Assembly: GCA_965221205.1 (NCBI GenBank) | Contig: OZ244870.1 | Coordinates: 1,426,001-1,490,000 of the forward strand | Reading direction: 5' to 3' | Source of the DNA: CBDFMG01 sp965221205 [NCBI: bacterium] | GTDB lineage: Bacteria > SM23-31 | DNA length: 64,000 nucleotides | In this document: one piece after another, positions 12,438 to 51,948 of the stretch | Numbering within the stretch: the stretch's first letter is position 1 | Layout: every line of letters begins with the position of its first letter | The notes under the pieces: model-generated | Databases searched by the model: none | Seen by the model: only the letters and a program-made list of their open reading frames with translations | What the model was told of the DNA's origin: nothing | Made by a program: the position numbers and the translations under genes

Positions 12438-12466
12438 ATTATTAATACCGGATCAACCAAAAACTC

Positions 12467-12934
12467 TTATTCTTTTTTGAGTGATGATATAATTTCCTTA
12501 ATAACATACATGCTCATAATAAATGATGAAAATGGTATTGCAGCATATGGAAAACTCATTGGTATTCTCATAGCGGGAGAATACTGAGTCCAATTTCTTA
12601 TTGTCAATTGGAAACCTTCAAACAATACCACACCAAGGAAACAAAGTATGAACCAACTACCCACTATTTTGAGAATGTGTTGAGACCTCGGTTTCAATTT
12701 TTTGACCACCATATCCACACCGAAGTGTGCATTTTTCTTTACCCCTGCCGCCGCACCCATGAGAGAAAGCCAAACAAACAGGTATCGCGCTAGCTCTTCT
12801 GACCAGGGAAGCGAATATTTTATGACATACCTGAACAATACCTGTAGGAAAATCACGATACTCATTAACGAAAGAAGGGAAAAAATAAAGTATTCTATAG
12901 TTTTATCGATTTTTCTGAACAATAGACTACCCAC
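12467..12934 (-). CDS. dctQ: TRAP transporter small permease subunit
   Basis: 155 residues with four predicted membrane segments and the typical DctQ core (YSLPWSEELARYLFVWLSLM, then GAAAGVKKNAHFGVD). It forms the membrane complex with DctM, whose gene starts 29 bases downstream. Length and motifs are normal. Confidence 0.95.
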   Translation of the reverse strand: MGSLLFRKIDKTIEYFIFSLLSLMSIVIFLQVLFRYVIKYSLPWSEELARYLFVWLSLMGAAAGVKKNAHFGVDMVVKKLKPRSQHILKIVGSWFILCFLGVVLFEGFQLTIRNWTQYSPAMRIPMSFPYAAIPFSSFIMSMYVIKEIISSLKKE

Positions 12935-13021
12935 ATAATTGTTGGATGAACATATTTTTCTTGATATTAGTAATTTCTGACTTTTTGTGAGTAAAAAACT
13001 ATATACTGCAAATTAATAAAA

Positions 13022-14059: not shown

Positions 14060-16492
14060 TCATCTTCTGTTCACCGTAAGCAGGTATTGTTTTCCGAGTT
14101 GAGTTTCAAACTCAATGGTTGCATTGCCTGATTTTCTTATCGGTACAGCCTGGTTATCAGATTTCACTTCGACTTCCCCTTTTACACTAATTTTGCATGT
14201 ATTACCTGTATTGGAGATTATCGTAGCCGAAGTAAGATTCCCGTATTTCCAAGAGAAGTCCACTTCAAATCCGCCTCGTGCCCTGAGACCTGTAATAGAG
14301 CCTTCAGACCACTCTTTTGGCAACGCTGGCAGCATTCTGATAATACCATTCTGACTTTGTAATAACATTTCAGCAATAGCCGCTGTAGAGCCGAGATTTC
14401 CGTCTATTTGAAAAGGATTAAGCTCAGTAAAGAGATTCGGATTAACATTTGAAGCAAGCATTTTCTTAAAGATCGATAATGCACGGTCGCCATTTTGCAA
14501 CCGAGACCAGCAGGCAGCTCTCCAGGCCATGCCCCATGCCATACGTGCCATGTCACCTCTGCGGTCTAATGATATTTTAGCTGCTTCAGCTAAATCGGGA
14601 GTCAATTCCGGCGAAATCTGAGTTCCCGGAAATAATGCGAACAGGTGGGAAATGTGCAGTTGATTAGGATCTGGCTCTTCATAATCTTCCATCCATTCTT
14701 GCAACTGACCATATTTTCCGATTTTCACACCAGGTAAGCGCTTCAATGCGAAAATGAGTTCATCACGAAAATCAATGTCAACATTTAAAAGATTACTTGC
14801 TTCAATACATTTTTTGAACAACTCATTTGTAATTTGAATATCCATTGAAGGTGCCATGCTTATTCTTCCGAATTCTCTATCAGGGAGAAAATATGAGTTT
14901 TCAGGTGACATTGAGGGACCCGTTACTAAATTTCCATGAGGATCTTCCACAAGATTATCAAGTAGAAATTCTGCCGCTTCTTTCATGACGGGATATGCTT
15001 TCTGGGCAAGAAAATTTTTGTCCATTCCGAAGGCATAATGTTCCCACAGATGAAGACTAAGCCACGCTCCTCCCATAGGCCATAGCCCCCATTGCGCTGC
15101 ATCTACCGGAGCGGCATTCCCCCAGATATCGGTATTGTGGTGTGCTACAAAACCTCTCGAACCATACATGATTTTCGCTGTACGACGACCTGTTTCCCTG
15201 ATAACATTAATTAAATCAAACAATGGCAGATGGCATTCCTTTAAATTTGTAACCTCAATGGGCCAGTAATTCATTTCCGCATTAATATTTAATGTCCACT
15301 TACTACCCCATTCAGGATATAGTTGATCATTCCAAATTCCTTGTAAATTTGCTGGCAATGTTCTAGGGCGTGAGGAGGAAATTAGCAGATACCTACCGAA
15401 TTGAAACAGTAATGCAACCAGTTGTGGATCGTCCTCTTCAAGAGCAGATTTAATGCGATTATCAGTTGGCTGTTCTATCTTTGCAGTTTCACCCAAATTG
15501 ATTGTCACACGATGAAACAGGTTCTGATAATCTGATACATGATCCTCTTGTAAATTTTCAGAAGATTTTTCCTTGACATCATCAATATATTTTTTTGTTA
15601 ATGCCTGAGGGTCACCCTTAATATCATTTCTGTTTTTAAAACTTGTTGCTGCAGCGAATATCAAGGTGACCGTATTGGCATTTCGTACATGAATCTGATT
15701 TTTAGATGAATATTTGGAACCATCTTCTGTTGTTATATGTAATCGACCCTCAAATTTCATCCCTTTTCCATCCCATATTGCATTCTCAGGCTGGAGAGCC
15801 AGACGTTTTCCTTGCTGGCCAAATAACCGCAACACATTGTTTTCTACTGATTGTGTTTCAGTATCCGGTTGAGGGCTCGTTAGTGATGCATCAAAAGATA
15901 TTTTTCCGGGCTCATCACTGGTAAGGCGAATAACAATGACTTGATCAACTGCCGATGAAAAAATCTCACGGGTAAATGTAACACCATCAATTTTATACCT
16001 TATTTTTACAATTGCCCGGTTGAGATCAAGTTCTCTATGATATTCGGTGAAACTATGATGTCCGTGAAACTGGATATAAAGGTCACCTAAAGGTTGGTAG
16101 GAGTGAAGCTGCCTCGGTATACCTATCATAGAGCTGTCTGCCAGCTCAAAAGCATCCTTATGCTTCCCCTCAAATAGCAGACTTCGGATCTTAGGAAGAT
16201 TTTCTAAAGATTTCGGATTATTCCTGTCTACATAGTCACCCGACCAAAAAGTGTCTTCATTAAGTTGAATATGCTCTGTTTGAACAGAGCCGTATATCAT
16301 TCCACCAAGACGACCATTCCCAACAGGGAGAGCTTCCGTCCATATCCCTGCAGGTTGTTGGTACCAGAGGATGTTGCTTCTATCAATATCGTCAGTTTGA
16401 AATGGAAATGTCGAAAGAACACCTGCGTTTGCACATATTCCGGTAATAATTATGCAATATTCTATGACGAATATTTTGATCAACTTTTTCAT
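14060..16492 (-). CDS. GH95 family alpha-L-fucosidase-like glycoside hydrolase
   Basis: 810 residues, normal for GH95, with a signal peptide (ends near ICANAG). The N-terminal beta domain opens with [20 protein letters not shown] (from about residue 40). The (alpha/alpha)6 catalytic part has [10 protein letters not shown] (about 405), carrying the two conserved Asn; TGPSMSPEN (about 527), carrying the catalytic Glu; and FQIDGNLG (about 695), carrying the conserved Asp. GH95 enzymes invert alpha-1,2-L-fucosides or, in some members, alpha-L-galactosides. It is probably periplasmic or extracellular. It lies between the LamG gene (46 bases) and dctP, so released sugar may feed the TRAP system. 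Confidence 0.93.
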
Positions 16493-16538: not shown

Positions 16539-18674
16539 TCATTTTATCGGTACCAAGATAAGTTTCAAAGATTTATATGTAATCTTATTTATCCAGACAA
16601 TCAAGTCTCTGTCTTGTGATGTTTGTTGGTGGCCGACACGGAAGCCTTTACCTTTATCAACCGGCTCTCCATTCATGAACAAATCTACATCGGCATTTCC
16701 CCAGTTTTTGATGACAAACGAAGGATTGATAACAGGATGCTCTTCACTTCCAGCAAGTTCTAAATTTAACTCTGAAGGGCCTCCATTTTCGGGAGTGGAA
16801 AGTACATAGGCGCGCTGGTATTTATCATAGCCAATATTATTGAATCCGAAACTGCCAAGTGTTAATTCTGCCGGTTTGATCCACGAGCGTGCCAAAAGTG
16901 CCAGTTCTCCGGCTTTTTGTTCGGTAAGACCGTAAAGAGAAACAGACAGGTATGAATCGCCCTCACCTTTTACAACAAGAGGACGGCCTTCTGCCAGCGC
17001 GGTGTGAGATGGACGATCGATGCTCGTGACACTACGAGAGTCATTTGGTATCCGACTAACAGGCCAATGGTTTCTCCAGTGAAAATTCGACCATTCCTTC
17101 CGAACACCCCATGGATATTCAATGATTTCGCCGCCGGGTTCAAATATAATATACGGTTTATAATTTGCCTTCAGGTTCGTCATCTGGATATTGGCGTTTG
17201 CAGGTTTGTCATAGGGAGCAGGAGGCCCATTTTCCCATGAATAGGTATGAGTCTCACCATCCATATTCGCAAGGGTTAATGCTCCGATCTCGACATTGTC
17301 TTCTGGTTTTGTACCGGGCTGATTAAAGAATATTGTCTCCTGCCACTGATGAATGTTCTCATCCGCCCATAACACCTGTTTACGGACAACAACACGGTCG
17401 GGATAAATAGTAAAATACTCGTCTGCCCACGAACCCCAGCCAGTCTCAGGATTCTCGCCGGTAATCTGATACAGTATATTCGTTATCGCATAACGCCAGT
17501 GAACAACAATCCTGGCATCGTTGTTTTCAATGATTCTTACGTGTGAATACCTATTTTGTTTGTCCGCCATGTGTTCAGAACTGCCCCAGCCCGACCTGCC
17601 GCTCCACAATTCAATACTTTGATCACCCATCCACAGTCCGTTCTCAGTGACATAACTGGCACCATAGTTTACTCCTCTCCAGAAGACTACCTTAACCGGC
17701 GAATCATCAAATGTAACAACGACATCTGCATAGTCACCCGCTCTCCATAGCTCATCCCAGGTATTACTGTATTCAAGTTTTGTATAGTATGCACCAAATT
17801 CATTTTTGTTCTCAGAAACTGAGGGGAATGACCGCCATGACAAAGGCTGTGGTTCTTTCAGTGTGATAAGCCTAAACGATTTATTTACCTCATCAGGACT
17901 CAATGCCCTATTATAAAGCTTCACTTCGTCGATACGACCGTCAATGACCATGTTGGATAACGATTTTCGGGATGGTTCTCTGTTGGTGAACAAAGGGTAC
18001 ATCTTTTGGTGGCTTTTACCAATGAAGAGTTTCAATGTGTTTTTCGGCTGTGGGAGCAGTTTGCCTTCAGGTGTATAGACCGCTTCACCAACCGGCGACA
18101 TTGAACCTTGGAAAAATTGAGTTCCTGCTGCTTCCCCGTTGATATAAACAGTCAATCCTTTGCCTTGTTCAAAGGTGCCCGCAATATGTGTCCACCGTAA
18201 CAACGGGATCTTTGCATCGGAGACACATTTACGCCAATCATCATTGACCGCCACATGAAAGCCGACCTGACCCAAAGCATTGATACCAAAAAAATAACCC
18301 CCGCGATGGTCAACTTCATGAGACACGACAGCCGTCCAGTTCCAGGGGTATGTCTGCGGGGCTATCCAGGCTTCAATGGTGAAAGAACCTTCAAACATCG
18401 GGACATGATCAACTTCTCTGACAACATGGGTTGTATACCCGTCAAACTGTATTGAATTGCCGGTCACACCCCCGACATGCTTATAGTTACCCCGAAGAGA
18501 ATCTTCGATTTTGCTTGCTTTGTCAAATACGGTTTCACCCGAATTTTCGTCAAAACTCCACCAGGCTACCGGACCGGTCTCCTGCGCTGGTGCAGGGAGT
18601 ATTGAGAATAGTAAAATAAATACGATCACAACCTTGTGTATAAGAATATTGTACATTGCCTCTAACCACCGCAT
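16539..18674 (-). CDS. Secreted LamG-domain protein, copy 1
   Basis: 711 residues. A signal peptide (IVFILLFSILPAPAQ) is followed by a concanavalin-like LamG domain at about 35-265 (PVAWWSFDENSGETVFDKAS near the start, later VIDGRIDEVKLYNRALSPDE). The remaining 440 residues (with VFWRGVNYGASYVTENGLWM) belong to no family I can name; a glycan-binding or glycan-degrading role is inferred from context only. The first 512 or so residues are identical to the paralogue at 26528-28666; the last 200 have diverged except for islands. The start is uncertain: ATG 18674 has no good ribosome site, and ATG 18656 has GAGG very close. It is first gene of the TRAP/GH95 operon. Confidence 0.85.
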   Translation of the reverse strand: MRWLEAMYNILIHKVVIVFILLFSILPAPAQETGPVAWWSFDENSGETVFDKASKIEDSLRGNYKHVGGVTGNSIQFDGYTTHVVREVDHVPMFEGSFTIEAWIAPQTYPWNWTAVVSHEVDHRGGYFFGINALGQVGFHVAVNDDWRKCVSDAKIPLLRWTHIAGTFEQGKGLTVYINGEAAGTQFFQGSMSPVGEAVYTPEGKLLPQPKNTLKLFIGKSHQKMYPLFTNREPSRKSLSNMVIDGRIDEVKLYNRALSPDEVNKSFRLITLKEPQPLSWRSFPSVSENKNEFGAYYTKLEYSNTWDELWRAGDYADVVVTFDDSPVKVVFWRGVNYGASYVTENGLWMGDQSIELWSGRSGWGSSEHMADKQNRYSHVRIIENNDARIVVHWRYAITNILYQITGENPETGWGSWADEYFTIYPDRVVVRKQVLWADENIHQWQETIFFNQPGTKPEDNVEIGALTLANMDGETHTYSWENGPPAPYDKPANANIQMTNLKANYKPYIIFEPGGEIIEYPWGVRKEWSNFHWRNHWPVSRIPNDSRSVTSIDRPSHTALAEGRPLVVKGEGDSYLSVSLYGLTEQKAGELALLARSWIKPAELTLGSFGFNNIGYDKYQRAYVLSTPENGGPSELNLELAGSEEHPVINPSFVIKNWGNADVDLFMNGEPVDKGKGFRVGHQQTSQDRDLIVWINKITYKSLKLILVPIK

Positions 18675-19164
18675 TAAATGAAATGAGAATAATCACTCCG
18701 GAAATTATTATTATTCTAAATCTTTTTAGAACAATCATAATAACAAATTAAAACAATATCAAGCTCTTTATATTCTTTGAATCTGGAGATATGGTTTTTA
18801 ATACTATCCGTAATTGTCCGTAATTGTCCGGAAAATCCGTATTATTGAGGAAAATAATTGTTTTCCTCAATATTTATTCCTACTATTTTGTATTCCAATC
18901 TTAAACACTATTTTCTTACCGCCATTTTTATTTATTTCATTAACCACATTCCATTTTTATTATTGAGGTATTGCTTATGAAAATATTTATGAAATCATAC
19001 TTTTCTATCTTTGTTGTAATGTTCTTATTTCCGGGGCAGGTTTATTCTCAGAACACAGGTGAAATCAGAACCATACTCACGAATTGTAATGTGATCGATT
19101 GTACCGGAAATCCAATTATGGAAGATATGACCATCGTGATCACAGGCAATAGAATCACTGAAAT
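17139..19164. repeat. 2,026-bp direct repeat, copy 1
   Basis: Matches 27131-29156 at a constant offset of 9,992 bases, with no mismatch found in reading. It spans codons 1-512 of the LamG gene, the whole divergent promoter region and the first 62 codons of the amidohydrolase gene. Both edges fall inside coding sequence, where the paralogues abruptly become different. Confidence 0.95.
18675..18976. promoter_or_regulatory. Divergent control region of the LamG/TRAP operon and amidohydrolase, copy 1
   Basis: The 302 bases between two divergent genes hold three symmetric or repeated elements: inverted repeat TTCTAAA-TCTT-TTTAGAA at 18714-18731; a 10-base tandem (TCCGTAATTG twice, then TCCGG) at 18807-18831; and a 12-bp perfect inverted repeat TATTGAGGAAAA / TTTTCCTCAATA with a 6-base loop at 18843-18872. 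One-turn spacing and dyad symmetry suggest regulator binding, though the last could also act as a hairpin. The same region recurs unchanged at 28667-28968. GAGG at 18965-18968 is the amidohydrolase ribosome site. Confidence 0.6.
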
Positions 19165-20317
19165 CAGCGAAGGCGAGTACACTGGCGGTGAGGATCCCTA
19201 CACTCGTATCCTCGACCTTAACGGCAGCTATGTGCTTCCCGGGTTCTGGAACATGCATTCCCATTTGTCCGATTTACACCCCGATGTTAATAATATTTTG
19301 GGAACTGAACCAGTGCTTCCGGCGGCAATTCGTTCTGGAAGAAACGCAATGGACGCTCTCAAAAGAGGTTTCACTTCTTTACGAATGACCGGCGAACGTG
19401 ATTATATAGATGTCGCCTGGAGAGACGCTTTTAACGCCGGTGTGTTTGTCGGACCTCGCATTTTCGCTTCGGGGAAAATACTTACAGCTACGGAAGGTAA
19501 TGCGTGGGAAGCTGAATGGCCTGCGGCAGTATTTATTGACGGCCCGTATGAAATGAGAAAGGCAATAAGGGAAAATATAAAAAGAGGTGTTGATTTTATC
19601 AAGCTTTCATCAAATAGTATGGAGAAAGATGAAATTGTCGAAGCGATACGAATAGCACATAAAGCCGGATTACGGGTAACAGCAGACATTGATGATCCTA
19701 TGGCGCGGATAGCCGTGGAAGCAGGTATTGATTGTATCGAACACGGTACCCCTTTGACCGATGAAACAATCAATCTGATGGCTGAAAAAGGAACCTTTTT
19801 CGACCCGACAATGGCATGTTATCTCAGTACCGAATATATTGTTGACCGTGAATCGCACATTGCCGACATCGGACTCAACGAAGACCCGGTAATTATCGAA
19901 GGGAGGATCGCTGTTTCGAATGCCGACCTCAGACCCCATAGGAACGCTGTGAAACAGCGGGAAATCCTTATGAAAGCTGTCAAAGCTGGAGTAAAGATCA
20001 TTACTGGAAGCGATACCAACCCGCTTGGAGAGATCGGTCTGCTGGAAATAGAGCAGCTTGTGTTTTCCGGATTAACAGAAATGCAGGCGCTCATCGCCGC
20101 CACGCGAAACTGCGCTGATATGGTTGATGTACTTGATGACCTTGGAACTATCGAAGAAGGAAAACTAGCCGATCTGATCGTCGTTGAGGACAATCCTCTC
20201 AAACACATTTCGAACATTAGAACACTCAAAATGGTCTTCAAAGACGGTCTGCCCGTTAACTTGGAAAAGAATGAAGGACAGGCCAGTTTTTGGGAGTTGT
20301 ATTTTACTAAGAAGTGA
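18977..20317 (+). CDS. Secreted amidohydrolase, imidazolonepropionase-like, copy 1 (lacks one metal-site His)
   Basis: 446 residues with a signal peptide (FSIFVVMFLFPGQVYSQ). Amidohydrolase landmarks are HSHL (about 94), FIKLSS with the bridging-type Lys (about 208), IEHG (about 254) and ITGSDTNP with the catalytic Asp (about 343). The family hydrolyses amide or related C-N bonds, often in dipeptides, at a metal centre. Where the paralogue and relatives have a His (TAHAS), this copy has TADID, so a metal ligand seems replaced by Asp. Activity may be altered or lost. GAGG at 18965-18968 favours ATG 18977. Its first 62 codons belong to the 2-kb repeat. Confidence 0.88.
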   Translation: MKIFMKSYFSIFVVMFLFPGQVYSQNTGEIRTILTNCNVIDCTGNPIMEDMTIVITGNRITEISEGEYTGGEDPYTRILDLNGSYVLPGFWNMHSHLSDLHPDVNNILGTEPVLPAAIRSGRNAMDALKRGFTSLRMTGERDYIDVAWRDAFNAGVFVGPRIFASGKILTATEGNAWEAEWPAAVFIDGPYEMRKAIRENIKRGVDFIKLSSNSMEKDEIVEAIRIAHKAGLRVTADIDDPMARIAVEAGIDCIEHGTPLTDETINLMAEKGTFFDPTMACYLSTEYIVDRESHIADIGLNEDPVIIEGRIAVSNADLRPHRNAVKQREILMKAVKAGVKIITGSDTNPLGEIGLLEIEQLVFSGLTEMQALIAATRNCADMVDVLDDLGTIEEGKLADLIVVEDNPLKHISNIRTLKMVFKDGLPVNLEKNEGQASFWELYFTKK

Positions 20318-20449
20318 GAGACAAATATGACAGTTCTTCGTTGTCGCTCAACATCAACCGCATCGAGAGGGGGACAGCACATCGTCAGGACAAGTTGGAT
20401 AGTAATTAATAGCAGTATTATTTTTTTCAGTCAGAGAAACAATTATATA

Positions 20450-20908
20450 TTACTCATTAAAATAAACTTGTTCCATCTCAATCCACCCATTCGATCCAGG
20501 AAGGGAAATCTGCATCGGATCGCAAACCTTTAACCATTCTATATTTCTGGGCTCTAATGCCAGTTTTTCCATATCACTTTCAAAATCATCCCCTGTGTAT
20601 TCATAATATCCAAATTCGTACCATTTCCCTTCAATCTGTTGAAGAAAAATGGAGAAATTTCTCATATTATATTGTGTCAAAAGATCTCTTACTCCCGGAT
20701 TAGAATCGGCATGCAATTTTTTGTATTCTTCTAGCATATCTGGCTTGATGCCAATGATCATTCCAACTCGTTTCACACTCTCTATCGCTTGAAATTCTCC
20801 CGTATCATCTGATATTTCATTAGTGCTCGTGTTCTGAGAACACATAATACCCGAAATAAGGACTATTACTATCAGAAACAGTATACATGTAGCTTTTATC
20901 AGATGCAT
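20450..20908 (-). CDS. L-rhamnose/L-fucose mutarotase-like lipoprotein
   Basis: 152 residues. A lipoprotein-type leader (hydrophobic core ending SGIMCSQ) precedes a ferredoxin-like domain of the RhaM family (DUF718): VGMIIGIKPDMLEEYKKLHA, then NMRNFSIFL, GYYEYTGDDFESDMEKLA and LKVCDP. RhaM enzymes interconvert alpha and beta anomers of L-rhamnose and related 6-deoxysugars. Being exported and last in the operon with a GH29 fucosidase, it may act on released L-fucose outside the cytoplasm. It could also be a non-catalytic relative. Confidence 0.8.
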   Translation of the reverse strand: MHLIKATCILFLIVIVLISGIMCSQNTSTNEISDDTGEFQAIESVKRVGMIIGIKPDMLEEYKKLHADSNPGVRDLLTQYNMRNFSIFLQQIEGKWYEFGYYEYTGDDFESDMEKLALEPRNIEWLKVCDPMQISLPGSNGWIEMEQVYFNE

Positions 20909-20970
20909 ATTTATTCCTTTCTGGTCATAAGGATGTATAGGGTTTTACTATGCAACTTTAATATCATCTG

Positions 20971-22386
20971 TTATCTTGCCTTGTCAACATCAAGTACTAC
21001 AACAGAATTCATAGGATCCCACGCCCGTCCGTCCAGAGTAACAACTATGTAAGCGTTACCTTCTATTGCAACTTTGAAATTTTTCCGAGGGATGCTTCTT
21101 AGAGCATAGGCTTGTATTGGACGGCGTCGCACAGTGTCTAACACCAACCTTCCATCATCAGGCCAGTCGAATACATGCAGGAACAGTCGCGTTGTACCGT
21201 CCGGAAGGATCTTATGGGTGATTCTTCCCCACTCGGGCTGCCCCCACTGAGTGCCCTTTGTCCTATAGATACTTTCACCGTATTTTTTAAGCCAATCTCC
21301 TCCTCCAAGGAGGGCATCAACCGACTCCTCGGGAATTATACCTTCGGGTGTTGGTCCGACGTTCAGCAAGTAATTTCCGCCCATACTGGCTATGTGGGCG
21401 AGATTTTGAACCACATCTTCTGCGCTCATAAAGTCAGGTCTGTCTTCGCGGTACATCCAGGAGCCATTCATTGTGGTATTTACCTCGAAATTATGAAAAG
21501 TCGAAATATCACCCAGTTTCGGGTAATACCCTTCGGGAGTCAAATAATCCATCGTTCCATGTGCAAACCGGTCATTAAAAATTACATCGGGCTGGATTGA
21601 ACGTATCATATCCATGATTTCATAAGCGTGAATCAGTTTTGGATGTTCTTCAACATAGAATTCCAACGGACCGTCACCTTCGGTCATAAATGCACCGCCG
21701 TCATCAGAAAAGAATATGTCTATCTGTCCGTAATCGGTGAACAGTTCACGGATCTGATTTTTCATATATACGATGTATTTTTCAAGGTCAGCATCAGGTT
21801 TCGGATAGTAGTGCTGGTTTCGGTACCACTTCGCGGGAAATTCGGGATGATGCATATCGGTAACAGAATAATAGATACCCAGCCGTATACCTGCTTTCAG
21901 ACAAGCATCCGCCAGTTCTTTCAGCGGGTCCCGGCCGAAAGGAGTAAAATCCGTTATATCGTATTCGGTATATTTGGAGTCGTACATACTGAAGCCATTA
22001 TGGTGCTTGGTGATATACACGATGTATTTCATTCCAGCATTCCGCGCAATATCGACCCATTCTTCAGCATCGAAATCCACCGGATTCAACACCAGACCCC
22101 GTTGTAGTAATTCGTCATAGTTTCTCCATCCTCTATCCTCTGGAGTTCTCGGCAGGGCATCGGGCCCCCAATGGATAAACATTCCGTAACGGGCATCGTG
22201 CCACCATTCCATCCTGTTATCCATAGACGGATTCCAGTCAGGACGGATCTCGATCATTTGGCCCGACCCCAGATTCTGATCCGGATAATCAGGTACCTGG
22301 GCTAGTACAGATGTTGCCGCTACATAAAGCAAGAAAATGCAAAACAAAACACTGCGAAATACTAATTTTGATAATAGAGCACTCAT
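20971..22386 (-). CDS. GH29 alpha-L-fucosidase
   Basis: 471 residues with a signal peptide (LYVAATSVLAQ). GH29 landmarks are WWHDARYGMFIHWGP (about 60-75), YIVYITKHHNGFSMYDSKYT (about 120-140), FGRDPLKELADACLKAGIRL and FFSDDGGAF (about 224-232), which holds the likely nucleophile Asp. The usual context is WFDGG, so this is a slightly unusual variant. It is a retaining exo-fucosidase family. AAAGGAGG precedes ATG 22386. It is transcribed with the dehydrogenases and SSS symporter upstream and the mutarotase-like gene downstream. Confidence 0.92.
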   Translation of the reverse strand: MSALLSKLVFRSVLFCIFLLYVAATSVLAQVPDYPDQNLGSGQMIEIRPDWNPSMDNRMEWWHDARYGMFIHWGPDALPRTPEDRGWRNYDELLQRGLVLNPVDFDAEEWVDIARNAGMKYIVYITKHHNGFSMYDSKYTEYDITDFTPFGRDPLKELADACLKAGIRLGIYYSVTDMHHPEFPAKWYRNQHYYPKPDADLEKYIVYMKNQIRELFTDYGQIDIFFSDDGGAFMTEGDGPLEFYVEEHPKLIHAYEIMDMIRSIQPDVIFNDRFAHGTMDYLTPEGYYPKLGDISTFHNFEVNTTMNGSWMYREDRPDFMSAEDVVQNLAHIASMGGNYLLNVGPTPEGIIPEESVDALLGGGDWLKKYGESIYRTKGTQWGQPEWGRITHKILPDGTTRLFLHVFDWPDDGRLVLDTVRRRPIQAYALRSIPRKNFKVAIEGNAYIVVTLDGRAWDPMNSVVVLDVDKAR

Positions 22387-22492
22387 AATTGCCTCCTTTT
22401 AATATTTAGTTTTTATAAGTCTTTTTATAATAAATTGTACATAGTCATACTAAGTTGAATATTTTGAGTTAAAAGTAAAAAGACAGTAACTA

Positions 22493-23659
22493 CTATCTCT
22501 CATAACACTGATTGAGTAAGTCCAACATTTCATCGTACGTAGCGACACGCGGATTATTTTTGTAATCAGGCAAAACTTGCGAAGCATGTGCCAAGTCTGC
22601 CAATTCAATTTTAGGAATCTTCAACTCTTTAAGATTAATCCACAATCCGATGTTCTTAAGAAACGTATCGAGTTCTTTACAGGACTCATTGGCTGCTGTC
22701 TCATCAGATTCATTATTCAATTCCTTCTTTACAATTCTACCTAGTGTTGCAAATTGCTTAATTGCTGACTTGAATGTATAGCGAGTAAATGAAGGATACA
22801 CCGCTGCAAGTGCTTCAGCGTGTGCCACATGAGGATAAAGACCACCTATTGCCATAGAAATACCATGAGGTAATGTAACACCAGCGTTGGCAATACAAAG
22901 TCCGGCAAGAGTGTCTGCCCAAGCCATTACATCGCGTGCTTCTTTATTCGAGCCGTCTAAAACACATTTTTCTAAATTATGCATCACGAGCCAAATAGCT
23001 TCTTTCGCCACCATATCCGTATAAAGTGATGCATTGCTATGAATATATGACTCAAATGCATGAGTAAAAACATCAAAACCTGTAATCGCTGTCATTCTCG
23101 CAGGTACTGTTACCGTTAATTCCGGGTCAACAATTCCGACTTTTGGAAAAATATTATTATTATAAAGAGCAGATTTACATTTCTCTGATGGATTAGTCAC
23201 AACGGAAACTTGTGTTACATGAGAACCGGTTCCCGAAGTGGTGTTAATCGCTATAACCGGTAGAGTCTTTCTGGTTGGCTGCTTTTCTCTAAACCAAAGG
23301 TAGTCCCAACAGGTACCATCATGTGTGGCTTCAACAGCAATGGCTTTGGCAGTATCCAAACTCGAACCACCGCCAACTCCGAGAATTACGTTTGCTTTAT
23401 GTTTCTTAGCTATATCAGCACCATCAGAAACACAGTCGGTTGTCGGATTGGGTATAACTCCGCTAAAATGTGCAAAATCAACACCAGCCTTACCAAGAGA
23501 GGAGACAATTTTATTGAAAGCTGGCGAAACATTTTGAAAAACTTGGCCGGTTACAATCAGACACCGTTTTCCAAATTGTGATACTACCTCACCAACATCA
23601 TCTACACGACCCCAACCAAATCTGATTTCTGTCGGTTGACCAAAATTAAAATTTTTCAT
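22493..23659 (-). CDS. Iron-containing alcohol dehydrogenase (FucO-like group III)
   Basis: 388 residues, usual length. The N-terminal nucleotide domain has GVGGGSSLDTAKAIA (about 98-112). The metal domain has GFDVFTHAFESYI (about 195-207) and LPHGISMAIGGLYPHVAHAE (about 265-284) with the conserved His ligands. The family reduces aldehydes or oxidises alcohols with NAD(H). In a fucosidase operon, L-lactaldehyde:1,2-propanediol oxidoreductase activity is a reasonable guess, but specificity cannot be read. It lies 20 bases after the Zn-ADH gene. Confidence 0.9.
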   Translation of the reverse strand: MKNFNFGQPTEIRFGWGRVDDVGEVVSQFGKRCLIVTGQVFQNVSPAFNKIVSSLGKAGVDFAHFSGVIPNPTTDCVSDGADIAKKHKANVILGVGGGSSLDTAKAIAVEATHDGTCWDYLWFREKQPTRKTLPVIAINTTSGTGSHVTQVSVVTNPSEKCKSALYNNNIFPKVGIVDPELTVTVPARMTAITGFDVFTHAFESYIHSNASLYTDMVAKEAIWLVMHNLEKCVLDGSNKEARDVMAWADTLAGLCIANAGVTLPHGISMAIGGLYPHVAHAEALAAVYPSFTRYTFKSAIKQFATLGRIVKKELNNESDETAANESCKELDTFLKNIGLWINLKELKIPKIELADLAHASQVLPDYKNNPRVATYDEMLDLLNQCYER

Positions 23660-23679
23660 GTTGATTCTTAAATTTTCTA

Positions 23680-24699
23680 TTATAAGTCTATCATGATTTT
23701 TAGACTTTTATCACCTTGTTCGTCGATAAAATCGTACGCTGCCATGTATTGTTCAAAAGGAAAATGTCTGGTAACCAGCGGTTCTGTAATCACTTCACCT
23801 TTAGCAAGTAGTTCAACTGCTTTCAGATAATCATCGTGTTTATACATTAAAGTTCCGATAATATTCAGTTCTCGATCTCCAACAATAGACATATCAATTC
23901 TCGGTTTTTTGCCAAAAACACCAAGAACAATGAAGATACCCCCTTTATTAATGGCATCTACTCCGGCATCCATAGTTGCTTCAACACCAACCGCTTCGAA
24001 AGCCACCTCAAAGCCCTCATCTCCAAAAACGCGGGTAGATGCATCAATGAGTGATTCTTTATTTGCGTTGGATGTTTCAGCAATTCCACATTTCCTGGCA
24101 ATGTCAAGGCGGAAATCGCTCAAATCTGTTATTAATATTTTTTTTGCACCCCGGCATTTTGCCACCTGTGCTACCAGATTTCCAATGGGACCTGCTCCTA
24201 AAACGACAATGTTTTTCCCTGTTATATCTCCTGCCCTTTGCGTTGAATGTACTGCTACGGATGTTGGCTCTACGAGAGCACCTTGTTCAAATGTTATTGA
24301 ATCAGGTAAAGGTACCATGTTTTCCTGTTTTATTATGAATAATTCCTGTGCACATCCTGGGGCTTGAAATCCCTGTACTTTCAATGTATCACAAATGTTG
24401 TAGTCACCTCGTAAACATGGGGGACATTTGCCGCACACTATCTGTGGTCTTGCAGTAGCATTCATTCCAGGTTTAACATTTGTAACACCCGTACCGACAT
24501 TTTCAACAACACCGGAAAACTCATGACCTTGTACCACAGGGTAAGATGTAAATGGGTGCTGGCCGTGATTTACATGAACATCCGAACCACAGACACCGAT
24601 CCGCTTGATCCGCAATAATATTTCACCCTGATCTAAGACAGGCTCAGGAACTTCCTGAAACTCTATTGTACCCGGTTCTTTCATTATAGCCTGCCGCAT
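23680..24699 (-). CDS. Zinc-dependent medium-chain dehydrogenase (sugar/threonine dehydrogenase-like)
   Basis: 339 residues. Catalytic zinc site GVCGSDVH (about 36-43) and GHEFSG (about 58); structural zinc Cys cluster CGKCPPCLRGDYNIC (about 89-103); Rossmann motif VLGAGPIGNLVAQVAK (about 166-181). The family oxidises polyols, sugars or threonine with NAD(P). With its neighbours it may oxidise L-fucose or a derivative. AAGGAAA precedes ATG 24699. Length and key residues are normal. Confidence 0.92.
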   Translation of the reverse strand: MRQAIMKEPGTIEFQEVPEPVLDQGEILLRIKRIGVCGSDVHVNHGQHPFTSYPVVQGHEFSGVVENVGTGVTNVKPGMNATARPQIVCGKCPPCLRGDYNICDTLKVQGFQAPGCAQELFIIKQENMVPLPDSITFEQGALVEPTSVAVHSTQRAGDITGKNIVVLGAGPIGNLVAQVAKCRGAKKILITDLSDFRLDIARKCGIAETSNANKESLIDASTRVFGDEGFEVAFEAVGVEATMDAGVDAINKGGIFIVLGVFGKKPRIDMSIVGDRELNIIGTLMYKHDDYLKAVELLAKGEVITEPLVTRHFPFEQYMAAYDFIDEQGDKSLKIMIDL

Positions 24700-24829
24700 T
24701 TTTGTTTCCTTGAATAGAGGTTAGAGATTAAGTTGCCAAATCAGCTATATTGTTGACAGAGTATAGCGACTATCCTCAAAATAGCAGCACCTTCTTTGAC
24801 CATTTTATCCGTCTCGACGACCTTATGCG

Positions 24830-26479
24830 CTAACGAAATAAGTAGTATAATATAATTATGACTACAAACAGAAAAACAGAAATTGACCGCAGATCCATTA
24901 TGCCGGTCAGTTTATTGTTGGTTACTGCTTTCAGAGGATGTTCCCAGCAAAGATTTTCGATTTGTTCCGCCGCCGGTTTTGGCGTCAGCAAGCTAACAGA
25001 CACGTAAACCACGCTGCAGAAGCAGAATAACCACCACCCTACCTGCATAAACGGAATACCCCACAAGTCGGTTACGATTCGCAAATCACCGACCAGCGGT
25101 TTGAAAGGCAGATCTATCACAAAGTATATACTGCCTACTATTAAACCGGAGATAAGAGTTATCAGGGCAGCTTCCTTTGTGCCACGAGACCAAAAGACAC
25201 CCCAGATAAAAACACAGGTAATTGCCGGCGCAAAAATCATAGGTATCTTGTTTATAGCAACGAAGATACTTTCGAACCTGCCACCCTGGGTCGACCATAA
25301 CATCGCCAGGATCATAACCACAACAGCACTGATGCGGCCAATGAAAACCTGGGTTTGATCATTCGTAGAAGGGCGGATGCGTTTGACAATATCCACTGCA
25401 ACCAGAGTAGCAGAACTGTTAAGAGCTCCGGCTATCGTACTCATTAGTGCAGCAAGTAAACCAGCCGCAACTATACCTTTCAAGCCGGAAGGCAGGAGCT
25501 GCTCAATCAGCACCGGCAATGTGCTGTTGTTGTCCGTGCCGATAATGTCCTTAAAGAGAACATATCCTATTACACCCGGGAAGACCATGATGAAAACGGG
25601 GAGAATTTTCAGAAAGCCGGCAAAAATAGGACCGCTCTGGGCGTGGAACTGACTTTTGGCACCCAATACTCTCTGTACAATGGTTTGATCAGTACACCAA
25701 TACCAGATGCCCAATATCGGATACCCCAGCAATACCGAGAGCCAGGAAAACTCATTCAAGATACCCTGTTCATTGTGGATGGGATGAATCATGCTCATTT
25801 GGCGAGGCTTGATCGCTTCCTGGAATTGTTGCAGCGATTCAATGCCGTGCTCCGGCAGAGCAAATATCGCAGCGATGGTTACCGCCACAGCACCCAGCAA
25901 GAGTACAAAAGTCTGGACTGTTTCGGTTACCACCACTGCCTTCAGTCCACCAAGAACAGTATAGATTGCAGTTATGACCGATATGATTACAATCGAATAA
26001 ATCACATCAATGTTGAAAAAATACTCGAAAACTTTTGCGCCAGCATACAGGCTGATACCTATATGGATTAACATCGCAGACAATACTGATATGAAAGCAA
26101 GGGCTGTTCTTGAACCGGGACTGTACCGTTTCTCGAGGTATTCCGGCAGAGTAGTGATCTTGCTTCTGAAATAAAACGGTGCAAAGATCAGCCCCAAAAT
26201 AATCAAACAAAACGCGGCCATCCATTCAAAATTTCCTATTACAAGCCCAATCCTATATCCGTCGGAAGCCAGACCGACCAGGTGGATAGTTGAAATGTTT
26301 GTGGCAAACAATGCCGCACCGACCATTATCCAACCCAGAGATCTGCCCGCCAGGAAATATTCATTACTCGTTGTTTGCCGTTTATGGCTTGCTATGATAC
26401 CGATAGCCAATATTCCGATAAGGTAGACGATTATGATTATCAAATCGATGGTGGGAATTGCAATTCCTGAATCTGACAT
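24830..26479 (-). CDS. Sodium:solute symporter (SSS family, sugar type)
   Basis: 549 residues with about 13-14 membrane segments. The N-terminus contains TTSNEYFLAGRSLGW and ATNISTIHLVGLAS, typical of SSS/SGLT sugar transporters; a central QTIVQRVLGAK segment and AGLLAALMSTIAGALNSSAT (with the conserved sodium-site Ser residues) follow. It imports a solute with Na+. In an operon with GH29, dehydrogenases and a mutarotase-like protein, L-fucose or a fucose-containing oligosaccharide is likely. Confidence 0.92.
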   Translation of the reverse strand: MSDSGIAIPTIDLIIIIVYLIGILAIGIIASHKRQTTSNEYFLAGRSLGWIMVGAALFATNISTIHLVGLASDGYRIGLVIGNFEWMAAFCLIILGLIFAPFYFRSKITTLPEYLEKRYSPGSRTALAFISVLSAMLIHIGISLYAGAKVFEYFFNIDVIYSIVIISVITAIYTVLGGLKAVVVTETVQTFVLLLGAVAVTIAAIFALPEHGIESLQQFQEAIKPRQMSMIHPIHNEQGILNEFSWLSVLLGYPILGIWYWCTDQTIVQRVLGAKSQFHAQSGPIFAGFLKILPVFIMVFPGVIGYVLFKDIIGTDNNSTLPVLIEQLLPSGLKGIVAAGLLAALMSTIAGALNSSATLVAVDIVKRIRPSTNDQTQVFIGRISAVVVMILAMLWSTQGGRFESIFVAINKIPMIFAPAITCVFIWGVFWSRGTKEAALITLISGLIVGSIYFVIDLPFKPLVGDLRIVTDLWGIPFMQVGWWLFCFCSVVYVSVSLLTPKPAAEQIENLCWEHPLKAVTNNKLTGIMDLRSISVFLFVVIIILYYLFR

Positions 26480-26527
26480 ATTGCACTTTCTTGATAAAAA
26501 GAGAGAGTTTAGTTCACTGATCGATTT

Positions 26528-28666
26528 TTATCGCGTAACCGGTGAAAGGGTAAATGTTAAGGAACTTCTCGCTTCCTTTTTAATCCAGACGATCAGATCT
26601 ATACCTTCGGAAGTCTGCCGGTGACCAAATCGAAAGTCTTTTTCACGCTCAATCCTTGACCCATTCAACATCAAAGCTGCACCAGCATTTCCCCAGTTTT
26701 TGATGACAAACGAAGGATTGATAATTGGCTGGTTTCTGCTTCCTGTGAGTTCAATAATCAGGTCATTTGGACTATCAGTATTGATACAAGATAATACGTA
26801 AGCGCGTTGATACTTATCATATCCGCCATCTAGATACTCTGCGCTTTTGAGTAACAATTCTGCCGGTTTGATCCACGAGCGTGCCAAAAGTGCCAGTTCT
26901 CCGGCTTTTTGTTCGGTAAGACCGTAAAGAGAAACAGACAGGTATGAATCGCCCTCACCTTTTACAACAAGAGGATGTCCTTCTGCCAGCGCGGAGTGAG
27001 AAGGGCGATCGACATTTGTAGCATCTCTTCCATCGTTCGGCAATAGACCGGTCGGCCAATGGTTCCACCATGGAAAATGGGACCACTCGTCACGTATTCC
27101 CCATGGGAAAGCCAGTATTTCACTTCCCGATTCAAATATAATATACGGTTTATAATTTGCCTTCAGGTTCGTCATCTGGATATTGGCGTTTGCAGGTTTG
27201 TCATAGGGAGCAGGAGGCCCATTTTCCCATGAATAGGTATGAGTCTCACCATCCATATTCGCAAGGGTTAATGCTCCGATCTCGACATTGTCTTCTGGTT
27301 TTGTACCGGGCTGATTAAAGAATATTGTCTCCTGCCACTGATGAATGTTCTCATCCGCCCATAACACCTGTTTACGGACAACAACACGGTCGGGATAAAT
27401 AGTAAAATACTCGTCTGCCCACGAACCCCAGCCAGTCTCAGGATTCTCGCCGGTAATCTGATACAGTATATTCGTTATCGCATAACGCCAGTGAACAACA
27501 ATCCTGGCATCGTTGTTTTCAATGATTCTTACGTGTGAATACCTATTTTGTTTGTCCGCCATGTGTTCAGAACTGCCCCAGCCCGACCTGCCGCTCCACA
27601 ATTCAATACTTTGATCACCCATCCACAGTCCGTTCTCAGTGACATAACTGGCACCATAGTTTACTCCTCTCCAGAAGACTACCTTAACCGGCGAATCATC
27701 AAATGTAACAACGACATCTGCATAGTCACCCGCTCTCCATAGCTCATCCCAGGTATTACTGTATTCAAGTTTTGTATAGTATGCACCAAATTCATTTTTG
27801 TTCTCAGAAACTGAGGGGAATGACCGCCATGACAAAGGCTGTGGTTCTTTCAGTGTGATAAGCCTAAACGATTTATTTACCTCATCAGGACTCAATGCCC
27901 TATTATAAAGCTTCACTTCGTCGATACGACCGTCAATGACCATGTTGGATAACGATTTTCGGGATGGTTCTCTGTTGGTGAACAAAGGGTACATCTTTTG
28001 GTGGCTTTTACCAATGAAGAGTTTCAATGTGTTTTTCGGCTGTGGGAGCAGTTTGCCTTCAGGTGTATAGACCGCTTCACCAACCGGCGACATTGAACCT
28101 TGGAAAAATTGAGTTCCTGCTGCTTCCCCGTTGATATAAACAGTCAATCCTTTGCCTTGTTCAAAGGTGCCCGCAATATGTGTCCACCGTAACAACGGGA
28201 TCTTTGCATCGGAGACACATTTACGCCAATCATCATTGACCGCCACATGAAAGCCGACCTGACCCAAAGCATTGATACCAAAAAAATAACCCCCGCGATG
28301 GTCAACTTCATGAGACACGACAGCCGTCCAGTTCCAGGGGTATGTCTGCGGGGCTATCCAGGCTTCAATGGTGAAAGAACCTTCAAACATCGGGACATGA
28401 TCAACTTCTCTGACAACATGGGTTGTATACCCGTCAAACTGTATTGAATTGCCGGTCACACCCCCGACATGCTTATAGTTACCCCGAAGAGAATCTTCGA
28501 TTTTGCTTGCTTTGTCAAATACGGTTTCACCCGAATTTTCGTCAAAACTCCACCAGGCTACCGGACCGGTCTCCTGCGCTGGTGCAGGGAGTATTGAGAA
28601 TAGTAAAATAAATACGATCACAACCTTGTGTATAAGAATATTGTACATTGCCTCTAACCACCGCAT
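26528..28666 (-). CDS. Secreted LamG-domain protein, copy 2
   Basis: 712 residues. Residues 1-512 are identical to the copy at 16539-18674: signal peptide, LamG domain and most of the unidentified second domain. The last 200 differ (for example FPWWNHWPTGLLPNDGRDAT against FHWRNHWPVSRIPNDSRSVT) apart from short identical islands. It is first gene of the SSS/dehydrogenase/GH29 operon, the same position as copy 1 in its own operon, which suggests the two proteins serve related substrates with differences in the C-terminal part. Function is not established. Confidence 0.85.
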   Translation of the reverse strand: MRWLEAMYNILIHKVVIVFILLFSILPAPAQETGPVAWWSFDENSGETVFDKASKIEDSLRGNYKHVGGVTGNSIQFDGYTTHVVREVDHVPMFEGSFTIEAWIAPQTYPWNWTAVVSHEVDHRGGYFFGINALGQVGFHVAVNDDWRKCVSDAKIPLLRWTHIAGTFEQGKGLTVYINGEAAGTQFFQGSMSPVGEAVYTPEGKLLPQPKNTLKLFIGKSHQKMYPLFTNREPSRKSLSNMVIDGRIDEVKLYNRALSPDEVNKSFRLITLKEPQPLSWRSFPSVSENKNEFGAYYTKLEYSNTWDELWRAGDYADVVVTFDDSPVKVVFWRGVNYGASYVTENGLWMGDQSIELWSGRSGWGSSEHMADKQNRYSHVRIIENNDARIVVHWRYAITNILYQITGENPETGWGSWADEYFTIYPDRVVVRKQVLWADENIHQWQETIFFNQPGTKPEDNVEIGALTLANMDGETHTYSWENGPPAPYDKPANANIQMTNLKANYKPYIIFESGSEILAFPWGIRDEWSHFPWWNHWPTGLLPNDGRDATNVDRPSHSALAEGHPLVVKGEGDSYLSVSLYGLTEQKAGELALLARSWIKPAELLLKSAEYLDGGYDKYQRAYVLSCINTDSPNDLIIELTGSRNQPIINPSFVIKNWGNAGAALMLNGSRIEREKDFRFGHRQTSEGIDLIVWIKKEARSSLTFTLSPVTR

Positions 28667-29156
28667 TAAATGAAATGAGAATAATCACTCCGGAAATTAT
28701 TATTATTCTAAATCTTTTTAGAACAATCATAATAACAAATTAAAACAATATCAAGCTCTTTATATTCTTTGAATCTGGAGATATGGTTTTTAATACTATC
28801 CGTAATTGTCCGTAATTGTCCGGAAAATCCGTATTATTGAGGAAAATAATTGTTTTCCTCAATATTTATTCCTACTATTTTGTATTCCAATCTTAAACAC
28901 TATTTTCTTACCGCCATTTTTATTTATTTCATTAACCACATTCCATTTTTATTATTGAGGTATTGCTTATGAAAATATTTATGAAATCATACTTTTCTAT
29001 CTTTGTTGTAATGTTCTTATTTCCGGGGCAGGTTTATTCTCAGAACACAGGTGAAATCAGAACCATACTCACGAATTGTAATGTGATCGATTGTACCGGA
29101 AATCCAATTATGGAAGATATGACCATCGTGATCACAGGCAATAGAATCACTGAAAT
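27131..29156. repeat. 2,026-bp direct repeat, copy 2
   Basis: Identical as read to 17139-19164, in the same orientation. It contains the 5' part of LamG copy 2, the divergent control region and the first 62 codons of amidohydrolase copy 2. Confidence 0.95.
28667..28968. promoter_or_regulatory. Divergent control region of the LamG/SSS operon and amidohydrolase, copy 2
   Basis: Identical to 18675-18976, so it has the same TTCTAAA dyad (28706-28723), 10-base tandem (28799-28823) and 12-bp inverted repeat (28835-28864). The two operons should therefore respond to the same regulator. No regulator gene lies beside either copy. Confidence 0.6.
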
Positions 29157-30306
29157 GTCGAATAGAAGGTATCGTGGTTCTGATCAGGCCAATGATGTCA
29201 GAGTACTCGATCTGGATGGAGCATATGTACTGCCAGGTTTGTGGAATAATCATACACATTTGACGGACCTCCACCCCGATATCCATAATGTTATAGGAAC
29301 GGAAGCATTGCTCCCTGCTGCTATTCGAGCCGGCAGGATGGCTATGGACGCACTTAAAAAAGGTTTTACATCACTTAGAATGGTAGCGGAGCGTGACTAT
29401 GCCGATGTCGCCTGGAAAAAAGCGTTTGATTCAGGTGTGTTTGTCGGTCCACGTATTATTCCATCAGGATATCATATTGCCTCGACACATGGAGACGCAT
29501 CAGTTTTATCATGGCCAGGTGATATTCAAGTGGACGGACCTCTTGAAATAAGAAAGATGGTGCGGCAAAATATTAGGAACGGTGCAAAAATAATAAAAAT
29601 TCAGGCAAATGTATTGAGCCGTGATGAGATTCAATCAGCTATTGAAACTGCACACAGTTTTGGAGTCCCTGTTACTGCACATGCTTCTGAAAAGGGAGCG
29701 CGGATAGCCGTGGAAGCAGGTATTGATTGTATCGAACACGGTTACGGCCTAACAGACGAAACACTACAGCTCATGGCAGAAAAAGGCACCTTTTATGATC
29801 CAACTATTGTATGTAATTTGAGTGCTGAATTCATAGCTGAGCGCGAGCATAAAATTGCTGAACTGGGCTTTAAAGAAGATCAAGCGATGATCGATGGCAG
29901 GATAAAAGTAGCTTATGCGGACGAACGATCACCGGAAGCTGCCATGCTTCAGCGGGAAATACTATTGAAAGCTGTTGAGGCTGGAGTGAAAGTCATCACT
30001 GGCGGAGATTCGAATCCGGTTGGGGAACAGGGATTGCTTGAGATTGAACAGCAAGTGTTTTCAGGACTTTCCGAGATGCAGGTATTAATAAATGCGACTA
30101 AAAATTCTGCGGAAATGATTGGAATGCTCGATGATCTGGGCACTATCGAAGAAGGAAAACTAGCCGATCTGATTGTCGTTGAGGACAATCCCCTTGATAA
30201 TATATCGAATCTCAGAAAACTTAAGATGGTAATAAAAGATGGAAAATTTGTTAATCTCACAAAAAATGAAGGGCAGAAAAGCCTTTGGGAGCTTTACTTC
30301 AAATGA
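28969..30306 (+). CDS. Secreted amidohydrolase, imidazolonepropionase-like, copy 2
   Basis: 445 residues, with the same signal peptide and first 62 residues as the copy at 18977. Unlike that copy it keeps the full set of landmarks: NHTHLTDL (about 92-99), KIIKIQ with the Lys (about 207), VTAHAS (His about 236), IEHG (about 255) and ITGGDSNP with Asp (about 344). It is likely an active exported metal-dependent amidohydrolase; the substrate is unknown. The next gene on this strand is an Fe-ADH 155 bases downstream. ATG 28969 is preferred for the GAGG site 8 bases upstream. Confidence 0.9.
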   Translation: MKIFMKSYFSIFVVMFLFPGQVYSQNTGEIRTILTNCNVIDCTGNPIMEDMTIVITGNRITEMSNRRYRGSDQANDVRVLDLDGAYVLPGLWNNHTHLTDLHPDIHNVIGTEALLPAAIRAGRMAMDALKKGFTSLRMVAERDYADVAWKKAFDSGVFVGPRIIPSGYHIASTHGDASVLSWPGDIQVDGPLEIRKMVRQNIRNGAKIIKIQANVLSRDEIQSAIETAHSFGVPVTAHASEKGARIAVEAGIDCIEHGYGLTDETLQLMAEKGTFYDPTIVCNLSAEFIAEREHKIAELGFKEDQAMIDGRIKVAYADERSPEAAMLQREILLKAVEAGVKVITGGDSNPVGEQGLLEIEQQVFSGLSEMQVLINATKNSAEMIGMLDDLGTIEEGKLADLIVVEDNPLDNISNLRKLKMVIKDGKFVNLTKNEGQKSLWELYFK

Positions 30307-30461: not shown

Positions 30462-31619
30462 ATGACAATAAATATTGATTTGCCTCATCCGAGAGAATTG
30501 ATATGTTATCCGGGAAGCATAAAGATGTTACCGGATAAAATTGGCGGAACAAACAAAAAAGTATTTATAATGGGAAGATTAAATAAGTTGAAAATGCCGG
30601 GTGTGTATGATTCAATCATGTCAAGTCTTGAAGATAAAAAACACAAAGTCACCATTTTCGATAAAATAAATTATGAGCCGACAATACAGGATATTGATGA
30701 AGCTGTAGATATATGCCGTGATGAACAATGCGACGTAATTGTATCTATTGGAGGTGGAAGTAGCATTGATGCGGCAAAAGCTGTTTCAATATTAATAAAA
30801 AATCCTGGTTCAGTTCGTGAATACCAGATGGATGATAAACCTATCACCAAACCGGGGTTACAACTGATCGCCGTCCCGACGACTGCGGGAACCGGTGCAG
30901 AAAGTAATTGGGTTTCGGTGGTTACGAATAAAGAAGAGAACATCAAAAAGAGCATAAAACATTCTTATCTTGTTCCGGATGTTGCGCTTCTTGATCCGGA
31001 ATTGATGGTTTCACTATCTCCCGAATTTACTGCTCTTACAGGAATAGACGCTTTCTCACATGCCCTGGAAAATATTGTTTCAACGAATTCTAACCATTAT
31101 ACACGAGCACTCGATATTAAAGCTATTGAATTAATAGGTAAAAATATAGTTCGTGCTTACAGGAATGGTACTGATATTGAGGCGCGATATAATATGGCCA
31201 TTGCAAGCTGCATGGCAGGTGTTGCTATTCAGACCGGTGTAGGAAGTGCTCATATGCTTTCACAGCCACTTGGTATGGTTTTGGGATTGAGACACAGCGA
31301 AACAATTGCCGCAGTTTTAGCGGCAACTATTGAAAGTAATCTTGAATATGCGAAAGATACGTATTGTCAGGTCGCATCGGTACTTATTCCACAAGCAAAT
31401 GGAAAATCTAGCAATAAAGTAGCGGCGTCGACGGCAACATTTTTTAGAGATATGCTTGAAAAACTCGATGTAAGAATAAAGCTTTCGGACAGAGGATTGA
31501 CAGAGAGTCAATTTCAGGAAGTTTTAGATAATGTCAAAATGTCAACTGCAGGCATCAAAACAAATCCGAGACCAATTGATGACGATGTTTTAATAGAGAT
31601 AATGAATAAGTCAATGTGA
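30462..31619 (+). CDS. Iron-containing alcohol dehydrogenase, second paralogue
   Basis: 385 residues. IGGGSSIDAAKAVSIL (about 98-113), PTTAGTGAESNWVSVVTN (about 139-156), GIDAFSHALENIVS (about 196-209) and a C-terminal HMLSQPLGMVLGLRHSE (about 266-282) give the nucleotide motif and metal-binding His pattern. It differs widely from the Fe-ADH at 22493-23659, so the two are not recent duplicates. An AGAGG site precedes ATG 30462. It may reduce an aldehyde produced by sugar breakdown. Confidence 0.9.
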   Translation: MTINIDLPHPRELICYPGSIKMLPDKIGGTNKKVFIMGRLNKLKMPGVYDSIMSSLEDKKHKVTIFDKINYEPTIQDIDEAVDICRDEQCDVIVSIGGGSSIDAAKAVSILIKNPGSVREYQMDDKPITKPGLQLIAVPTTAGTGAESNWVSVVTNKEENIKKSIKHSYLVPDVALLDPELMVSLSPEFTALTGIDAFSHALENIVSTNSNHYTRALDIKAIELIGKNIVRAYRNGTDIEARYNMAIASCMAGVAIQTGVGSAHMLSQPLGMVLGLRHSETIAAVLAATIESNLEYAKDTYCQVASVLIPQANGKSSNKVAASTATFFRDMLEKLDVRIKLSDRGLTESQFQEVLDNVKMSTAGIKTNPRPIDDDVLIEIMNKSM

Positions 31620-48691: not shown

Positions 48692-48738
48692 AATATAAAT
48701 TTTCTTCGACGTTTCTCTACGACAGGAGGAGGAGAACC

Positions 48739-51906: not shown

Positions 51907-51948
51907 GAAGATACTCAAGATTTACATTCGCTTAGCAAGAAAAACACG

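Follow-up and report, generated by a model that had tools for sequence, protein, structure and literature searches.

An identical 2,026-bp tract in two divergent LamG–amidohydrolase gene pairs as a probable product of ectopic gene conversion

In a 64,000-bp stretch of bacterial DNA (hereafter the window; contig OZ244870.1), two divergent LamG–amidohydrolase gene pairs carry the same 2,026 bp, and our analysis indicates that this block most likely arose by ectopic gene conversion, the two pairs being old duplicates of each other. Gene conversion is a well-known process, of which the block is a clean example; provided that the assembly is correct, it forms part of a statistically clear conversion mosaic and illustrates the process well. 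The features are collected in Table 1.

Table 1 Features of the two gene pairs and their operons (window positions)
Feature	Position	Strand	Remarks
Identical tract, copy 1	17139–19164		2,026 bp; maximal exact match to 27131–29156
Identical tract, copy 2	27131–29156		2,026 bp; direct orientation, offset 9,992
40-bp exact run, LamG1	16693–16732 = 26685–26724		Shuffle fraction 0.00025; 0 without the 120-bp run
120-bp exact run, LamG1 3' part	16864–16983 = 26856–26975		0 of 20,000 shuffles reach 120 bp
45-bp exact run, amidohydrolase 1	19703–19747 = 29698–29742		0 of 20,000 shuffles; also a conserved protein stretch
32-bp exact run, amidohydrolase 1	20147–20178 = 30142–30173		Shuffle fraction 0.0012; weakest of the five
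TRAP transporter DctP, DctQ, DctM	11160–14008	-	
GH95 family protein	14060–16492	-	Downstream of LamG1
LamG1	16539–18674	-	711 aa; LamG domain at residues 93–264; C-terminal region without Pfam family
Control region, copy 1	18675–18976		302 bp, divergent; 75% A+T; identical to copy 2
Tandem GTAATTGTCC pair	18810–18829		Just upstream of the palindrome
Near-perfect palindrome, candidate operator	18843–18872; copy 2, 28835–28864		30 bp
Amidohydrolase 1	18971–20317	+	448 aa; likely start ATG 18977
L-rhamnose mutarotase (RhaM) family protein	20450–20908	-	Over the Pfam cut-off, below the NCBIfam cut-off
GH29 alpha-L-fucosidase family protein	20971–22386	-	
Iron-containing alcohol dehydrogenase	22493–23659	-	
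Zinc-binding alcohol dehydrogenase	23680–24699	-	
Sodium:solute symporter	24830–26479	-	Downstream of LamG2
LamG2	26528–28666	-	712 aa; residues 1–512 identical to LamG1
Control region, copy 2	28667–28968		302 bp, divergent; identical to 18675–18976
Amidohydrolase 2	28963–30306	+	447 aa
Second iron-containing alcohol dehydrogenase	30462–31619	+	Downstream of amidohydrolase 2

Two divergent gene pairs share an identical 2-kb tract

The two copies of the block match without a single mismatch, the match is maximal, and the window is free of N. Each copy consists of the 5' 1,536 bp of a LamG gene, the 302-bp control region (from the start of LamG to the probable ATG of the amidohydrolase) and approximately the first 190 bp of an amidohydrolase gene. 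Both edges are abrupt and lie inside the LamG and amidohydrolase genes, within aligned paralogous codons. The preliminary description of this DNA had claimed the identity, this content, edges inside genes where the paralogues diverge abruptly, and the gene content of two operons, LamG-GH95-TRAP and LamG-SSS-ADH-FeADH-GH29-mutarotase; the exact match, the coordinates and the family assignments confirmed all of these, the gene orders being LamG-GH95-DctP-DctQ-DctM and LamG-SSF-ADH-FeADH-GH29-RhaM. Elsewhere in the window, long exact repeats occur only within a helicase-like gene, as its internal repeats at approximately 37.5–39 kb, and homogenised repeats are thus not confined to the LamG–amidohydrolase unit.

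Comparison of the window with itself aligned 16584–20304 with 26576–30299. DNA homology stopped no more than 48 bp from the 3' ends of both genes, suggesting that the old duplicated unit was the divergent gene pair alone, and the genes behind the two pairs differ. Beyond the main block, four shorter exact runs (120, 45, 40 and 32 bp) were found on the same alignment, those of 40 and 120 bp sharing the 9,992 offset of the 2,026-bp tract and those of 45 and 32 bp lying at an offset of 9,995. The stretches between the exact runs were 52–67% identical in DNA (identical positions 69/109, 68/131 and 100/155 in the LamG genes and 297/493, 253/399 and 75/112 in the amidohydrolase genes), showing that there is no halo of intermediate identity around the tract. 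A recent duplication of the whole 3.7-kb pair, followed by import of divergent patches from a third homologue into one copy, would likewise make identical stretches alternate sharply with divergent ones, and the GC3 of the amidohydrolase 3' parts does differ between the copies (0.445 compared with 0.347). However, this scenario needs multiple distinct imports at the two outer ends of the pair, as well as an unseen donor, the GC3 values of the LamG 3' parts are the same (0.390 and 0.393), and the difference between the downstream operons does not point to a recent 3.7-kb duplication; we consider it very unlikely. An insertion element was rejected as the cause of the block, since no transposase family was found in the 20 ORFs scanned with Pfam between 7574 and 36608 (20 of the 27 listed; the four unscanned ones in this range are antisense to scanned genes) and the edges fall in aligned paralogous codons.

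Synonymous sites, shuffles and control gene pairs

All of the degenerate conserved codons in the block were identical (481/481 in LamG and 59/59 in the amidohydrolase, 540/540 together), compared with 142/311 outside the block and the 120-bp run (12/27, 24/54 and 106/230). The NG86 dS outside the block was 1.8 and 3.0, which is near saturation; for a further stretch of 51 codons, no value was obtained. These figures bear on purifying selection as the sole keeper of the identity, without any conversion. Although the tract does span the control region and both N-termini, constraint on the proteins would neither preserve synonymous sites so fully nor stop so sharply inside the genes, and we regard this explanation as scarcely credible. 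Taken together, the sharp intragenic edges, the near-saturated flanks and the identical synonymous sites are the signature of ectopic gene conversion.

Each of the four shorter runs was matched by at most 0.12% of shuffles in a test of 20,000 rounds that used the divergent codons only and treated the rate as uniform along the gene. The 45- and 32-bp amidohydrolase runs may be due in part to conserved protein stretches. Eight further pairs of paralogous genes from the window served as controls (M28 peptidases, M24 peptidases, esterases, iron alcohol dehydrogenases and others, some named by eye), the repeats inside the helicase-like gene being left out; these pairs were 28–61% identical in amino acids and 45–65% in DNA, and are less alike than the LamG–amidohydrolase unit. 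Their longest exact run was 35 bp, in the esterases, for which 1,000 shuffles reached 36 bp, and none of the eight had an exact run beyond that of its own 1,000 shuffles. In a closer control, an M28 gene that is intact and a degenerate copy of it, 72–74% alike over two aligned parts, had no 25-mer in common (13 offsets in the list for the window). With control-pair runs of at most 35 bp and these shuffle results, a chance origin of the block was rejected. Zero differences in 2,026 bp set a 95% upper bound on divergence of approximately 0.0015, suggesting that the main event was recent by that measure.

Ectopic gene conversion between the two pairs

We propose that the LamG–amidohydrolase pair was duplicated long ago and that each copy came to stand with its own, different downstream operon. 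Recently, approximately 2 kb comprising the LamG 5' part, the control region and the amidohydrolase 5' end would have been copied from one pair on to the other by RecA-type homologous recombination, leaving the flanks unexchanged. The smaller exact runs would represent separate small or patchy events, or patches left by mismatch repair. Both operons would thereby have gained the same cis-regulatory region. The non-reciprocal nature of the transfer, its recency and the role of RecA are inferred. Both pairs retain homologous outer parts and different operons. The divergent parts of the two pairs are 62–64% alike, which is low for RecA recombination; thus either the 5' halves were once more alike or the exchange started in a short identical run.

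The exact identity without any private change is also what would be expected of a collapsed repeat, that is, of an assembly in which the sequence of one paralogue was used twice or the flanks were mis-joined across a repeat whose copies differ slightly in the real genome. A mis-join, however, accounts for one block and not for the further exact runs amid 52–67% identical sequence, and open frames and homologous flanks are present on both sides of both copies. In addition, the middle and left segments have a gene content that fits a single pathway, and the segment between the blocks matches its flanks in tetranucleotide make-up (r of 0.93 with the left flank and 0.91 with the right). This fit suits one genome, without proving the join. 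The correlation of the 2-kb block itself with its neighbours is lower (r of 0.83–0.85), the block being short. On balance, an assembly artefact appears unlikely.

Comparison with known systems and consequences

Ribosomal RNA operons are alike throughout, whereas the two operons described here differ in their downstream content. Conversion between ribosomal RNA operons is described for E. coli in the part of the source drawn upon (PMC8022953), and our case resembles it as conversion between repeated operons. Between the Salmonella genes tufA and tufB, which differ at 12 nucleotides, conversion is, according to the relevant part of that report, non-reciprocal, with continuous tracts that are shortened by mismatch repair (PMC5485169). 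The LamG–amidohydrolase block is similar in that transfer would have occurred between two paralogous loci, but tuf conversion, as presented in that part, lies within one gene, whereas the present tract spans two genes and their common control region, with outer parts that are only 62–64% identical (PMC5485169). Identical copies of nifH in Rhizobium etli recombine with or without conversion, and intervening DNA is deleted, as described in the section of the source used here (PMC10932983). Both systems contain identical repeated stretches; however, the events in R. etli were observed in the laboratory, whereas ours are read from sequence alone, in two carbohydrate operons with repeats 10 kb apart (PMC10932983). 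A literature search on gene conversion, paralogues, promoters and operons returned no title describing this case among the matches listed, from which we do not claim its absence from print.

By analogy with R. etli nifH, the direct repeats (2,026 bp, 9,992 bp apart) are predicted to allow RecA-dependent loss or tandem amplification of the intervening cassette. The copy number of this 10-kb cassette, which has a perfect direct repeat at either end, may vary. Where conversion runs across a divergent promoter, as here, a single step can rewire or re-synchronise two operons. There is also a warning for annotation, as the identical LamG 5' halves do not here signify a recent duplication of the operons.

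Control region and regulation

The near-perfect palindrome is a candidate operator. As DNA, its hairpin (18830–18885) had a folding energy of -10.9 kcal/mol and a z-score of -4.9. Apart from the two control-region copies, the window contained neither the inner 26 bp of the palindrome, with up to six mismatches allowed, nor the 22-bp tandem GTAATTGTCC pair, with up to five. Looser forms were present: at two mismatches, the half-site TATTGAGGAAAA occurred at 13 places, including two elsewhere in the block, and at one mismatch, a single GTAATTGTCC occurred at six places. Viewed as RNA, the leader folded weakly better than its shuffles (z of -1.63; 17 of 200 shuffles folded as well). Across the whole window, no Rfam family reached its gathering score. 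No tRNA genes were found. Promoter predictions were dropped, with 41 sites compared with 38.2 expected by shuffling; terminator-like sites numbered 10, compared with 12.4. The Pfam scan of 20 ORFs revealed no transcription regulator, and inspection by eye of the other ORFs of at least 150 aa gave none either.

The preliminary description had also proposed that one regulator could drive both operons through a shared promoter block. The identity of the control regions over 302 of 302 bp makes the first part of this proposal reasonable: with identical divergent control regions, the same regulator should see both operons, so that common regulation of the GH95–TRAP and symporter–dehydrogenase–GH29–mutarotase operons is plausible, and both would probably respond to the same signal. 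That signal would perhaps be L-fucose-type sugars, as judged from the GH95, GH29 and mutarotase genes. The notion of a shared promoter block, in contrast, is better replaced by that of a conversion tract, because the identity takes in 1.5 kb of coding sequence in LamG, reaches into the amidohydrolase gene, stops inside both genes and recurs in four short runs away from the promoter. Moreover, of the 1696 positions that a 2,026-bp tract can take within the 3.7-kb unit, 1329 (78%) include the control region in full, and the position of the promoter inside the tract is therefore no evidence of selection for co-regulation. A bolder proposal is that the conversion is not incidental: recurring events anchored on the control region would hold two functionally complementary operons for fucose glycans to a single control sequence as their enzymes and transporters drift apart, and the same repeats would let a population amplify or drop the 10-kb symporter–dehydrogenase–GH29 cassette by RecA, an intact LamG–amidohydrolase pair being left each time; we consider it improbable that this would hold as a whole.

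Genes of the two operons

The grouping of the genes in Table 1 into operons was inferred from their order and strand. Family GH95 includes other activities besides alpha-fucosidase. The likeliest function of the operons, as deduced from their gene families, is the breakdown of fucose-containing glycans. GH29 and GH95 are given as alpha-fucosidase families in the part of the literature consulted (PMC4454575). The best solved-structure matches of the GH29 protein were alpha-L-fucosidases, and no NCBIfam model matched it at 0.001. The iron and zinc dehydrogenases matched many NCBIfam families, each listed match lying below the cut-off. For the amidohydrolases, the best NCBIfam model was Xaa-Pro dipeptidase, below its cut-off, and amidohydrolase 2 matched solved structures of amidohydrolases, including an Xaa-Pro dipeptidase and an arginine carboxypeptidase.

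Beyond the LamG domain, neither LamG1 nor LamG2 matched a Pfam family at 0.001. With the limit raised to 5, the C-terminal part of LamG1 still had none, and that of LamG2 had one sub-threshold match, to DUF3122 (E of 0.12). A structure predicted from the two LamG sequences had a mean pLDDT of 34.8. By eye, the N-terminus of LamG1 resembles a signal peptide.

In the collections searched, no homologue was near enough to reveal the direction or age of the conversion. A search of viral contigs with exact peptide patterns, sensitive to close relatives only, yielded none for LamG, amidohydrolase 2 or GH95, and the palindrome was not found there. Among plasmids, nothing matched the LamG C-terminal part; 342 records contained amidohydrolase matches, all of them below 60% identity, and the twenty listed were 28–32% identical. 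LamG1 matched one locus of the genome contig collection, from Omnitrophota, the best segment being 36% identical over residues 11–268. Among 98 genomes (G001 and its relatives), four contained a LamG match, and all six matches lay within query residues 17–191.

Repeated 11-mer in the control region

Two copies of the 11-mer TATTATTGAGG were found within 18840-18968 of the 302-bp divergent control region. The first extends into the 30-bp near-perfect palindrome (a candidate operator) on its left-arm side and the second directly precedes the start of amidohydrolase 1, so that the right arm of the palindrome could pair with either copy. A translational switch arising from this alternative pairing is conceivable from the sequence. 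The idea is tempered by the weak RNA fold of the leader, which gave a z value of -1.63 against shuffles.

Frame breaks, repeats and paralogues

On reading the ORFs, frame breaks seem to be clustered in parts of the window, and genes between roughly 6 and 33 kb appear unbroken. The helicase-like gene contains TAG stops at 36606 and 36807; the same frame runs on beyond both, and after these stops the continuation switches to other frames. Self-comparison of the window at the DNA level revealed that the end of this gene is formed by repeats of a 207-bp unit (37478-39104), with units 77-85% alike and some long exact runs. The degenerate M28-type peptidase copy has its pieces spread over several frames and aligned with the intact copy in two parts, at 72% and 74% DNA identity, and it looks like a pseudogene.

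Features with their coordinates in the window
Feature	Position	Remark
Helicase-like gene	35751-39117	ResIII/DEAD match
M24-like gene	47212-48691	Named by eye; split over two frames
Another hydrolase-like gene	48688-50018	Named by eye; split over two frames
Intact M28-type peptidase copy	50290-51906	Adjoins the degenerate copy
Degenerate M28-type peptidase copy	51936-53223	Family assigned by eye

A series of secreted-looking peptidase and esterase-like paralogues, named by eye from ORF translations, occupies 40310-63511 in the right half of the window. Close to the left end, self-comparison also detected a 90-bp direct repeat (412-501 and 650-739; 91% identical).
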